Translations under genes and position numbers: made by a program | Notes under the pieces: model-generated | Told to the model about the DNA's origin: nothing | Seen by the model: only the letters and a program-made list of their open reading frames with translations | Databases searched by the model: none | From: an uncultured bacterium | GTDB taxonomy: Bacteria > Vulcanimicrobiota > CADAWZ01 | NCBI GenBank assembly: GCA_949288455.1 | Contig: CASEKF010000043.1 | Span: 1 to 43,374 of the forward strand | Reading direction: 5' to 3' | DNA length: 43,374 nt | Part shown: positions 38,841-43,374 of the stretch, piece by piece | Position numbering within the stretch: position 1 is the first letter of the stretch | How the letters are laid out: each line of letters starts with the position of its first letter

Positions 38841-38876
38841 AAGCTAATAAAAAAATTGGCCGTCTGCTAGCTTTTT
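38841..38876 (+). terminator. Weak terminator after the flavoprotein gene
   Basis: AAGCTA (38841-38846) pairs with TAGCTT (38868-38873) across a 21-nt loop, with TTTTT at the end. A run of nine A's at 38819-38827 could serve as the U-tract of a minus-strand terminator for the Cof gene, although no good stem precedes it. Confidence 0.35.
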
Positions 38877-39690
38877 AAATAAAGCCTTCCAAAACCCTGG
38901 CGACTCCGTTTTCTTCATTCGACGGAGCTAAAATAGCAGCGGAACGCTTCACTTCTTCAATAGCGTTACCCATAGCCACCGATATGCCGGCGTATTGAAG
39001 CATGGACAAATCGTTAAGGCTGTCGCCGAAAGCCATAACTTCTTCTCGCTTCACTTTCAAATAATCGCAAACGAACTCAAGACACTTTCCTTTACTGGCA
39101 AAAGGAGAGTTTACTTCTACGTTATAAGAAAGAGAAAAAGTCGCAGAGACATTATAACGTAAACAAACGTCTAGCATTATAGCTCTCTTTTCGGCATCTT
39201 TGCAAAAAAGATTCATTTTTTCTATATCCTGTCGTCTGTTTAATAAAAAAGATTCGGCGTCGGAAATTTTTTTGCAAGTCGACGAAAGCAGATCTTTAAA
39301 TCTTTCTATATGATAAGTTTTCATATCGTCGTAAGCGGATTTTTCAAGAAAAGCTTGTCCGTCTATAAAAAGTTCCGCCGCCACGTCCATATTTTTCGCT
39401 TCTTTTAAAATATTATGAGCTTCGTTAAAAGGAAGAAGTTCCTCATATATCCTTTCTGCCGTCTTTAAATCAACGGCAAACCCTCCGTTGGTACAAATAG
39501 CATACCTTACCTTATCGAATCGGTCTAAACAAGGATATAACTCGGTCAAAGTCCGTCCCGTACATAAAACGATAAAAATTCCCCGTTCAGCTGCCTTATC
39601 CAAAATCTTTTTATTCTCGTCAGTTAATTCGGATTTGGAATTAAGAACAGTTCCGTCCATATCTAAAGCGACTAATTTTACTTTGCGCAC
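38875..39690 (-). CDS. Cof-type HAD hydrolase (sugar-phosphate or nucleotide phosphatase)
   Basis: The 271-residue product shows all HAD motifs: nucleophile DMDGT (Asp10, Asp12) followed by 'LNSKSELTDENKKIL', motif II 'LCTGRTL', and the C-terminal 'MAFGDSLNDLSML' with 'GISVAMGNAIEEVK', typical of the Cof subfamily (C2B cap). These are cytoplasmic phosphatases of broad substrate range. Start is GTG at 39690, after AAGGA about 9 nt upstream; no ATG is available. It lies downstream of the SCIFF peptide gene on the same strand but behind a hairpin terminator, so it is probably transcribed separately. Confidence 0.9.
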   Translation of the reverse strand: MRKVKLVALDMDGTVLNSKSELTDENKKILDKAAERGIFIVLCTGRTLTELYPCLDRFDKVRYAICTNGGFAVDLKTAERIYEELLPFNEAHNILKEAKNMDVAAELFIDGQAFLEKSAYDDMKTYHIERFKDLLSSTCKKISDAESFLLNRRQDIEKMNLFCKDAEKRAIMLDVCLRYNVSATFSLSYNVEVNSPFASKGKCLEFVCDYLKVKREEVMAFGDSLNDLSMLQYAGISVAMGNAIEEVKRSAAILAPSNEENGVARVLEGFI

Positions 39691-39871
39691 TTTTTAAAAT
39701 CCTTACTAATTACCTAATATTTCTTAACCGAAACTCTATTGCTCCGAAAAAATCGAATACTCGATAAATCCAGCTACACAAGAGTTACGTTATATTTATA
39801 AGCAGATAGAGAACATAACCAAAACGTTAAAAATATAAACTATAACCCCGAAGAAATGAACAGATAAAATA

Positions 39872-39903
39872 ATAACTCCAGAAATTCAATATTCTAGAGT
39901 TAT
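39872..39903 (-). terminator. Hairpin terminator downstream of the SCIFF peptide gene
   Basis: On the minus strand 12 pairs (one G-T) around an 8-nt loop are followed by TATTTTATCTG. It lies 77 nt after the SCIFF stop and would end that transcript before the Cof gene. Confidence 0.6.
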
Positions 39904-39980
39904 CTACGTTTAAAACAATAATTATAAAAATAAGCCAAACCAAAAGCCAAAACTACATCTAAAGCAAAACTAACCGGAGA

Positions 39981-40142
39981 TTATCTTCTTTTCTCACAAG
40001 GAACGTTACCTACCGTACAAGAAGTTTTGCAAGCGGATTGACAAGAAGTGGAACATTCTGAACATTCCTTTGAAAATTCTTCCTTTTTCCAAGGAGCCGC
40101 AATTTGAACGGCATATTTAAATTCTACTTTTTTGTTTTTCAT
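39981..40142 (-). CDS. scfA: SCIFF-type six-cysteine ranthipeptide precursor
   Basis: The 53-residue peptide has a leader of ~26 residues (MKNKKVEFKYAVQIAAPWKK...) and a core with six Cys (C27, C30, C34, C38, C42, C49). The segment CSTSCQSACKTSCTVGNVPC agrees almost residue for residue with what I recall of the SCIFF (six cysteines in forty-five residues) family. In that family a radical-SAM enzyme links Cys sulphurs to acceptor residues (ranthipeptides), a system nearly universal in Clostridia and tied to quorum sensing there. Start ATG at 40142, with GGAGAG 9 nt upstream. No maturase or the usual secDF/yajC neighbours are in the window. Confidence 0.88.
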   Translation of the reverse strand: MKNKKVEFKYAVQIAAPWKKEEFSKECSECSTSCQSACKTSCTVGNVPCEKRR

Positions 40143-40167
40143 GTCCTTAAACTCTCCATTCCTTAAA

Positions 40168-40442: not shown

Positions 40443-40730
40443 CTAACCTAAGGAAGAACCTTCTTTATCCGGAAAATCACAGTCTTCACATTCGTTAAAA
40501 CTACTGAGCGGACGCGCTTTATAAGTGTGAGTACAGTTTATAAAAATTTTCGCTCCGTCTTCAAGATTAAATCCAAAATCAATATGAGGGCAAAATCTGT
40601 CCGGAACCTTGTCTACGCAAAATTCATATAACTCGTCGTACATGCTGGGATGGGCATGCTGAAAATAATGTTTCTCGCACTGGAAAATTCCAAGCAGAGA
40701 CTGTCTGTAAACACATGGTCTGTAAACCAT
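40443..40730 (-). CDS. Small Cys/His-rich protein, unknown
   Basis: The 95-residue product starts MVYRPCVYRQSLLGIFQC and has seven Cys (6, 18, 38, 47, 66, 81, 84) and five His, including CEKHYFQHAH and a C-terminal CEDC pair. This suggests metal binding, perhaps zinc or an iron-sulphur site. There is no signal peptide or membrane segment. I recognise no family. Start: ATG at 40730, with GGAGGAATGCTTT giving ideal spacing; the TTG 15 nt earlier lies inside the ribosome binding site. It is 300 nt upstream of the SCIFF gene on the same strand, so a link to that peptide is possible but unproven. Confidence 0.75.
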   Translation of the reverse strand: MVYRPCVYRQSLLGIFQCEKHYFQHAHPSMYDELYEFCVDKVPDRFCPHIDFGFNLEDGAKIFINCTHTYKARPLSSFNECEDCDFPDKEGSSLG

Positions 40731-41149: not shown

Positions 41150-41689
41150 TTATTTCGACTGCAAAAGCATAGAGCCGACAGGCGAACAGATATACGGCGC
41201 GCTTCTATAAGATCCGTCCAAATCCAACCCGTAGCCGACAATATTAGTATAAGAGCAAGTAAAGCAAGAATAAGAAATATTTATATCGGCGAGGCGTAAA
41301 GAAGGGTTGTCTAATAAAACGCATATATTAATTCTAGAAGGTTTTTTCTTCGTTAAATAGGAACAGGCAAAATCAAGAGTTAAACCTGTCTCAGCCAAAG
41401 TATCTACAAGCAAAACGTTTTTATGTTCCACATCAAGCGAAAGATCTCTTTTTATTTTTATAGTTTCGCTCATACGTCCGTTATCGCCGTAATCGGAAAG
41501 CTCTAAAAAATCTATTGAGACGGGGCAATTTATTAATTTGATCAAATCAGACGCAAAAAACAAACCTGATTTCAATAACGCGACTATATGCAAATCAGAA
41601 TTAGAAAAATCCGTATTAATTTTCTCCGCTAATTCTTTTACGGCCATCTGAATTAGCTCGGCAGAATAAATAATTTTTTCAAGAGGCAT
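41150..41689 (-). CDS. hpt: Hypoxanthine phosphoribosyltransferase-like protein
   Basis: The 179-residue product has the purine phosphoribosyltransferase plan: 'LHIVALLKSGLFFASDLIKLI' (~33-53), 'SIDFLELSDYG', the PRPP motif 'VLLVDTLAETGLTL' (~92-105) and the C-terminal 'GYGLDLDGSYRSAPYIC'. The last segment fits Hpt well. In the PRPP motif the usual V-E/D-D-I-x-D-T/S-G has become V-D-T-L-A-E-T-G: one acidic position is Thr and the base-side Asp is Glu. This may reduce or alter activity. It would salvage hypoxanthine or guanine to IMP or GMP. The ATG has no close ribosome binding site; GGGAG lies 16 nt upstream. Own promoter at 41713-41740. Confidence 0.82.
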   Translation of the reverse strand: MPLEKIIYSAELIQMAVKELAEKINTDFSNSDLHIVALLKSGLFFASDLIKLINCPVSIDFLELSDYGDNGRMSETIKIKRDLSLDVEHKNVLLVDTLAETGLTLDFACSYLTKKKPSRINICVLLDNPSLRLADINISYSCFTCSYTNIVGYGLDLDGSYRSAPYICSPVGSMLLQSK

Positions 41690-41754: not shown

Positions 41755-41783
41755 GAAGAATCTTTGGAATATCAAGATTCTTC
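41755..41783. repeat. 10-bp inverted repeat at the end of the LmeA-like gene
   Basis: GAAGAATCTT and AAGATTCTTC form a perfect inverted repeat spanning the stop codon region. No T-run follows on the minus strand, so it is a poor terminator by itself. Confidence 0.4.
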
Positions 41784-43004
41784 GGATTCTGATCCGGAGG
41801 CTAAATCGGCAACGTTTGCTTCAGAAACCGGACCGGCAGAATTTTTATTTTCCGACGAGTCGGAATAAATACAAAAAGACGCTCTTCCTTTATAAAGAGA
41901 CAACGTATACGGATTATAATCCGCAAACGAAGGTATCAGCCGTCTTAAATTTATCAAAATCATTTTTTTATCGGATTTTACGTAAGAAGGATCGAATTTA
42001 TCGCAAATAATATTCATAAGAATATTTTGCACTACGGTTTTAGGCACTGCGAAAAGATTCATGATATCTAATTTATCTATTTCGATTCTAGCTACATTTT
42101 TCTTCACGTAAACTTTCAACTCCGCGCTGAAAGGCACGGAGACGATTTTTTTTAAATTTCCGCGCAAGATAATTCTATCGTCGGCCAAAGCTACCCGCAA
42201 ATCATAAACGCCTTTTTTATTTGCGGAAGACGAATAAAATCGTACCGCCGCAGAAACCAAACTTTGATACGCTTCCGCTGCCGCGGAAGTTATATAAAAG
42301 TTTTTAATAACGGGTTTGCCGTTTTCAAAAATCGCTTTACAAGAAAGTGAAACGTCTCTTACCTCCGACAGAATTTCATCTCCAAATTTAAATTCCAGCT
42401 TATCTAACGAACAATCGCAAATATAGTCTCCGGACACTTCGTCAAGCGAAATTATAAGCGAAAAATTCCCGACTTCAACGCCGGTTAATAAAGACGAGAC
42501 AAATTTTGATATTTCGCCGTTACGAATGAACGACCATAAAGAAGGCAACGAAAACAACAGCTCCAATCTAACTAAAGTTTTCTCCGAATCTGACGGACAA
42601 TCCGTTCCTACAGGTATTTTAATTTGAAATAATTCGACCGCCGCGGAATTTAATTGAAGCGTATTTAAAGTAAATTTGCCGTTTTCAAACTCAAAATTAT
42701 ATGAAAGAGACAGTTTGCTAAGCTCCGCCAAAATTTCGCCTGCATTTTTTAAATCGACATTCTCGACTAACAAAGTTCCCGAATATCTATCAGAAGCCTC
42801 CTTCGAAACCTCAACGGAAACTTTACCGGCTTGAATTTGACTTATCAAAGATAGAAGCGCGCGGAAAATTTCATGTTCCCCTACAAAAGCGGATAAAGAA
42901 GGAGCCGCTATCGCAAGCTCGACGCGCCCGGAGGTTTCGTTATCGGTAAAGCTAATATCGGCGCGTTTTACAAAAACGCCTCTAAATAAAGTTAAAAAAT
43001 CCAA
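41772..43004 (-). CDS. LmeA/DUF2993-like protein with internal duplication
   Basis: The 410-residue product begins 'DFLTLFRGVFVKRADISF', which resembles the 'LL.G.F..v.v' start of LmeA (DUF2993) lipid-binding proteins. Residues ~31-130 and ~146-260 are two copies of one unit: both run 'PSL..F....EI......L', then 'S....Y', 'L...L....EIL.E....SLS', 'FENGK' and 'SAA.E..Q'. The C-terminal part (~275-380) is a further beta-rich region with 'VPFSAELKVYVKKNVARIEI', and the end is acidic and Ser-rich. The TTG start at 43004 has GAGAGG ~10 nt upstream. It carries no signal peptide itself; one may be encoded by the overlapping upstream ORF. It probably acts at the envelope on lipids, by inference only. 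Confidence 0.65.
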   Translation of the reverse strand: MDFLTLFRGVFVKRADISFTDNETSGRVELAIAAPSLSAFVGEHEIFRALLSLISQIQAGKVSVEVSKEASDRYSGTLLVENVDLKNAGEILAELSKLSLSYNFEFENGKFTLNTLQLNSAAVELFQIKIPVGTDCPSDSEKTLVRLELLFSLPSLWSFIRNGEISKFVSSLLTGVEVGNFSLIISLDEVSGDYICDCSLDKLEFKFGDEILSEVRDVSLSCKAIFENGKPVIKNFYITSAAAEAYQSLVSAAVRFYSSSANKKGVYDLRVALADDRIILRGNLKKIVSVPFSAELKVYVKKNVARIEIDKLDIMNLFAVPKTVVQNILMNIICDKFDPSYVKSDKKMILINLRRLIPSFADYNPYTLSLYKGRASFCIYSDSSENKNSAGPVSEANVADLASGSESEES

Positions 43005-43186
43005 ATACTGAGCGCCTCTCTTTCTTGCTGACGTTTACCGCGATAAAATCGTATGTCAAGAATTTCTTGAAGCGTCTTAGCCAATCCTTTTTTATTTTTA
43101 TTCGCTATAAAATTAAATTCTAATATGATAACAAAAAACGCTTTAAAACATGAAATTCTAACTTTTTTATAACCATGCTTTGCCAT
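42992..43186 (-). CDS. 64-aa ORF with membrane segment; possible N-terminus of the LmeA-like gene
   Basis: The product starts MAKHGYKKVRIS, has a hydrophobic stretch (CFKAFFVIILEFNFIA) and then 'KGLAKTLQEILDIRF', which would suit the anchor and first helix of an LmeA-type protein. It is in another frame and overlaps the LmeA-like ORF by 13 nt. Either a frameshift (mutation or sequencing error, around 43005-43025) splits one gene, or a small anchor protein is coupled to it. Its ATG has no ribosome binding site and lies inside the long hairpin. Confidence 0.4.
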   Translation of the reverse strand: MAKHGYKKVRISCFKAFFVIILEFNFIANKNKKGLAKTLQEILDIRFYRGKRQQEREALSIWIF

Positions 43187-43232
43187 ACGCAGAAAAAATT
43201 ATTTTATTTTTTCTGCGTATGGCAAAGCATGG
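43173..43232. repeat. 26-bp perfect inverted repeat
   Basis: The arms at 43173-43198 and 43207-43232 are exact complements around an 8-nt A/T loop. The left arm contains the ATG of the 64-aa ORF (43186-43184), which would be locked in the stem of a minus-strand transcript. No U-tract follows on the minus strand. Confidence 0.8.
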
Positions 43233-43374
43233 GATTTAATCGAAAAATTAACATTTAACAAAAGTCTAAACGCATAAAACATTAGAACTTATTTTCTAAT
43301 AATTCAGGATATAAAATCGAATTTTTAAAAAAATCATAAAAAAAATTTACATTTTTGTAAAAAAACTTTAAACA

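Follow-up and report, generated by a model that had tools for sequence, protein, structure and literature searches.

A 53-codon open reading frame (ORF) in the window, that is, the whole stretch of 43,374 nucleotides analysed here, is very probably a genuine SCIFF ranthipeptide precursor gene, whose product would be modified in trans by a radical-SAM maturase encoded on another contig (C31) of the same genome (G000). Because this maturase-type gene lies on another contig and because peptide and maturase genes co-occur across 149 genomes of the phylum, the SCIFF gene should be called unlinked, not orphan.

The Precursor Gene

The product of the ORF, MKNKKVEFKYAVQIAAPWKKEEFSKECSECSTSCQSACKTSCTVGNVPCEKRR, contains six cysteines (positions 27, 30, 34, 38, 42, and 49); these span Cys27-Cys49 with the conserved core TSCQSACKTSCTVGN, in agreement with the SCIFF pattern of six Cys within about 45 residues. 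The SCIFF identity put forward in the first-pass annotation was borne out by the curated models, both cut-offs being exceeded: TIGR03973 was matched with 53.3 bits against a cut-off of 50 (E 1.8e-14, NCBIfam) and PF13165 with 52.6 bits against 27 (Pfam). Position and size of the ORF also stood as first given, and the strand, on which that annotation was silent, is minus (Table 1). No second SCIFF gene was found in the whole genome. A Shine-Dalgarno-like GGAG also precedes the gene in G001, G002, and G004, and a hairpin with a T-run lies directly 3' of it in G001-G003.

Table 1. Features in and around the SCIFF gene (positions in the window).
Feature	Position	Strand	Remarks
Cof-type phosphatase gene	38875-39690	minus	neighbour of SCIFF gene
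Terminator-like hairpin, weak	39871-39904	minus	downstream of SCIFF gene; chance expectation of the scan, 1.8 sites of this kind
SCIFF ranthipeptide precursor gene	39981-40142	minus	53 aa; SCIFF models, core alignment, selection
Shine-Dalgarno-like GGAGAG	40152-40157	minus	9 nt before ATG of SCIFF gene; read from sequence
Seven-Cys protein gene	40446-40730	minus	95 aa, unnamed family; directly upstream of SCIFF gene
hpt-like phosphoribosyltransferase gene	41150-41689	minus	neighbour of SCIFF gene
410-aa protein gene	41772-43004	minus	adjoins hpt; no curated family cut-off reached

The strong conservation of the core, noted earlier from the peptide itself, is evident at the codon level. Over the last 37 codons, 16-23 synonymous and only 1-3 amino-acid codon changes separate the gene from its counterparts in three further genomes from this family, and nine amino-acid changes were counted in the comparison with the next family within the order. 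The corresponding dN is 0.01-0.05 within the family and 0.13 against the next family, with dS saturated, and three genera belonging to the family retain the ORF with its ATG. This low dN at saturated dS implies that the gene is translated and under strong purifying selection; that the 53-codon ORF is a real gene is thereby confirmed. A relic would not show a core that hardly varies from genus to genus at saturated synonymous sites, and the gene is therefore not one.

Surroundings of the Precursor Gene

The neighbours named in the first-pass annotation (Cof phosphatase, a cysteine-rich protein of about 95 residues, and hpt) are all present and all on the minus strand. The gene order hpt - Cys-rich - SCIFF is common to four genomes of the family. 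Across families, the SCIFF gene has shifted from one housekeeping context to another, with hpt and the Cys-rich gene in family f1 and an adjoining purA-like gene in f2 and f8; the gene before SCIFF in f6 is one that we take, by eye, to be dnaB.

The 95-aa protein has seven invariant cysteines and 87-97% identity across the order, compared with about 36-49% for the adjacent hpt. It was found in about 32 of the 149 genomes that make up the phylum sample, mostly without SCIFF, and in none of 398 genomes from the phylum of Clostridium (a phylum that exceeds the approximately 400 drawn). Searches of Pfam, NCBIfam, PHROG, and PDB returned no match to it, and its single-sequence fold was poor (pLDDT 49). 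A role as SCIFF partner was considered and found unsupported, many genomes carrying the Cys-rich protein without SCIFF. No relatives of the maturase, the Cys-rich protein, or SCIFF were found in the viral contigs scanned, nor in plasmids. The 410-aa protein keeps its place in the gene order, yet its identity within the family is only 28-30%. A long inverted repeat, CCATGCTTTGCCATACGCAGAAAAAA... / ...TTTTTTCTGCGTATGGCAAAGCATGG, was seen by eye at 43173-43233 near the contig end.

The Maturase Encoded Elsewhere in the Genome

The genome (2.13 Mb, 98.9% complete) contains one strong match to the maturase model TIGR03974, at C31:1518-2819, with E 1e-110 and 369.7-370.3 bits, below the equivalog cut-off of 425. 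The first-pass annotation was thus right that no maturase adjoins the SCIFF gene, the only strong match of this type being on another contig, and a maturase-type gene was recovered by the whole-genome search (370 bits, under the cut-off); its label "orphan" was misleading, as peptide and maturase genes are both in the genome, unlinked. Its further claim, that a maturase from another part of the genome continues to modify the peptide, gains from the gene on C31 and from strict co-occurrence, from which we infer the modification itself.

TIGR03974 is the best of 73 NCBIfam families for the C31 protein, followed by "not_ScfB" (324 bits, cut-off 855), PapB (223), a nif11-type family (201), and a QhpD-type family (194). 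Among solved structures, CteB matches best (5WGG, E 7e-84), and the radical-SAM CxxxCxxC motif and the cysteines of the SPASM auxiliary clusters align with it; these cysteines are invariant in relatives. The N-terminal ~75 residues align with those of relatives, and the TIGR03974 match starts only at position 63. The equivalog cut-off is exceeded by two members of the phylum, G013 (573 bits) and G010 (438 bits). By the strict rule, the C31 protein, which stays under the equivalog cut-off, is classed as TIGR03974-like, the unmatched part being N-terminal.

Co-occurrence and Linkage in the Phylum

Among the 149 phylum genomes, nine carry both peptide and maturase, 139 carry neither, and one, a 62%-complete bin, carries the peptide only. 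The corresponding Fisher p of about 1e-13 is overstated, since the genomes are related. Each of the four family genomes has exactly one SCIFF gene and exactly one strong maturase-type gene. The two genes are adjacent in G008, G011, and G013 and on different contigs in G000-G004 and G010.

These patterns bear on the possibility that the peptide is a relic, or serves in unmodified form, e.g., as a metal-binding Cys-rich peptide, and that the C31 enzyme has a different substrate. Such a reading would accommodate the score below the TIGR03974 cut-off, the orphan-maturase family "not_ScfB" as second model, and a maturase gene placed beside gspF and prepilin-like genes and not beside the precursor; it is at odds with the saturated synonymous and almost absent amino-acid change, the strict phylum-wide co-occurrence with one gene of each kind per family genome, and the adjacency kept in three other phylum genomes. 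We regard it as quite unlikely, and a relic gene was rejected on purifying selection.

In G000, 3.2 kb separate the SCIFF gene from the C43 contig end, and 1.5 kb separate the maturase gene from that of C31. As both genes are near contig ends, this genome alone would be compatible with a distance of a few kb, and hence with the genes being linked after all and separated by draft assembly. That they are is highly improbable: G001 has the two genes on separate contigs, with minimum distances to the contig ends of ~29 kb and ~11 kb (more than ~40 kb apart); for G004, the corresponding minima are ~119 kb and ~43 kb (more than ~160 kb apart), and the conserved flank of the unlinked maturases contains no SCIFF gene. 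Because the genes of G001 and G004 are so far from contig ends, the unlinking is not an assembly effect, and an assembly split was rejected on these distances.

Linked and unlinked forms also differ in sequence. In the maturase tree, the nine phylum enzymes are separate from 18 enzymes of Clostridia (support 98/94), and the six unlinked ones form one clade (96/93) inside the phylum clade. A GG precedes Cys1 in the linked phylum peptides and in 71 of the 74 readable peptides of the named set among the matches listed; the unlinked peptides have lost it and mostly end in CEKRR. The named loci are the matches listed, filled by Clostridia and not an unbiased sample; among the 80 listed, 75 have the SCIFF gene upstream of the maturase on the same strand, and one of the 80, L066, is the contig of G013.

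Two side observations may be added. Five named loci (L043, L063, L076, L107, and L110) have a SCIFF-type maturase and no recognisable SCIFF gene in the stretch examined; L043 is at a contig end, and the five may be other unlinked cases or have other precursors. Five-cysteine SCIFF variants with the motif CKTSATVS, in which the fifth Cys is replaced by Ala, are maturase-linked in G008 (L017/L031) and G011 (L015/L033).

The gspF/pilC Neighbour of the Unlinked Maturase

In all five readable unlinked genomes (G000, G001, G002, G004, and G010), the maturase gene immediately precedes a gspF/pilC-type gene of like orientation. The latter belongs to PF00482 and reaches 359 bits with the GspF model, below its cut-off; prepilin-like genes then follow in G001, G002, and G004. 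The maturase flank is conserved, with gspF downstream and, in f1, an rpsT-like gene on the opposite side. No maturase precedes the best gspF match in SCIFF-less phylum genomes or in the linked G008, G011, and G013, where the flank is readable, and no gspF homologue was found within the stretches examined of the 80 named loci listed. In G002, maturase and gspF are separated by a partial duplicate, 62 aa long, of the start of gspF (L037:6961-7149).

The maturase-gspF pair is a conserved synteny, and it suggests that the SCIFF system may be coupled with a pilus or type-II-like machine. Of the functional leads that synteny offers, involvement in pili or secretion is the best, although we put it forward tentatively and think it rather doubtful; as a lead to SCIFF function, the gspF neighbour is new and testable. 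More speculatively worded, SCIFF could have been rewired in this diderm, Spo0A-less phylum: the maturase would have joined a gspF/pilC-led pseudopilin operon, the peptide would have lost the GG before Cys1, and the crosslinked peptide might be made for, exported by, or regulating a pilus/type-II-like machine, unlike the role reported in Clostridia. This scenario is possible, if rather doubtful.

Host Lineage and Origin of the System

The host is not a Clostridium and belongs to a diderm lineage without Spo0A. Its non-clostridial nature, which the first-pass annotation had raised as a condition for widening the range of the system, is supported by marker-gene placement, the phylum being set apart from the Clostridia, which RpoB places in a separate clade (G156, a clostridial row in the wrong frame and with 23% identity, was ignored). 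Genome numbers differ as well, with 149 for this phylum and more than the roughly 400 drawn for that of a named Clostridium. Omp85 was present in 8/8 phylum genomes tested and the Spo0A cut-off was reached by 0/8, the reverse of the pattern in three Clostridia tested.

SCIFF has been described as a clostridial peptide (PMC8326336, PMC8172795), and an adjoining maturase and a clostridial host are its usual, though not strictly defining, traits; neither is found here. This description, the patchy occurrence in the phylum (10/149), and a record label "Bacillota bacterium" for the G013 contig, which tells little, might point to recent horizontal transfer from Clostridia or to bin contamination. 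We consider either unlikely, as the nine phylum maturases lie on one side of the branch from Clostridia (98/94), the SCIFF gene occupies a lineage-specific synteny in four genomes, and G013 has Omp85 and no Spo0A above the cut-off; contamination was rejected. An ancient transfer, with the phylum as recipient or as donor, is possible.

The lineage also matters for function. A link of SCIFF with quorum sensing and with sporulation genes has been reported. In C. beijerinckii, disruption of the precursor/radical-SAM genes was followed by lower expression of sporulation genes and higher expression of agr (Chen et al. 2020, as summarised in PMC8102284). A sporulation route of this type cannot act through Spo0A in the present phylum. 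Since the gene is under strong selection in diderms without Spo0A, the basic role of SCIFF cannot hinge on the Spo0A sporulation route. For genome mining, peptides with a maturase elsewhere are likely to be missed by cluster-based methods.

Predicted Crosslink

A ranthipeptide is defined by a non-alpha thioether crosslink in the product. The crosslink of CteA was reported as Cys32-Thr37 or, later, Cys32-Thr34 (PMC8326336, PMC8172795), and the residues matching Cys32, Thr37, and Thr34 are here Cys38, Thr43, and Thr40. By this alignment, Cys38, the fourth cysteine, is the predicted donor and Thr40 or Thr43 the acceptor. Cys4, Thr+2, and Thr+5 are invariant in 10/10 phylum peptides, including the two without the fifth Cys. 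In the named set, among the matches listed, Thr+2 is present in 74/74 readable loci, and +5 is Gly in 17. Because Thr+2 is invariant and +5 is Gly in 17/74, the comparison favours Thr+2 as the common acceptor, i.e., the Thr34 assignment in CteA. The loci with Gly for Thr at +5 form a clostridial subgroup, CKTSCG[IV]ANQ, which bears on the disputed CteA position (L048, L051, L069, L075, L077, L082, L084, L086, L088, L090, L092, L102, L108, L111, L112, L118, and L120).

By analogy with CteA/CteB, the divergent leader KYAVQIAAPWKKEEFSK would be bound by the C31 radical-SAM/SPASM enzyme, which has an N-terminal region at the position of the leader-binding (RRE) domain; the enzyme would cleave SAM and link the sulfur of Cys38 to Thr40.

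Comparison With Known Systems

The closest characterised pairs are CteA/CteB (thermocellin, Clostridium thermocellum) and Tte1186a/Tte1186. The present system shares with them the six-Cys core with donor Cys4, Thr+2, and Thr+5, and its maturase is homologous to theirs in the radical-SAM and SPASM domains, where every cluster cysteine is present. It differs in that the genes are unlinked, the GG before Cys1 is lacking, leader and maturase N-terminus are divergent, the maturase lies beside gspF, and the host is a diderm without Spo0A. With the clostridial SCIFF loci (TIGR03973/TIGR03974), it has in common the core motif and the combination of peptide and maturase, whereas most of those listed keep the peptide gene upstream of the maturase and none has a gspF homologue in the stretch examined. 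PapA/PapB (freyrasin) and the QhpD-type systems likewise employ radical-SAM/SPASM thioether-forming enzymes, to which the C31 protein is matched more weakly, and the repeated Cys-X3-Asp of PapA (PMC8172795) is of a kind unlike the present precursor. What appears to be new, judged from sequence comparison, is an unlinked SCIFF clade without GG, with its maturase beside gspF and a diderm host, alongside linked, Clostridia-like copies in the same phylum.
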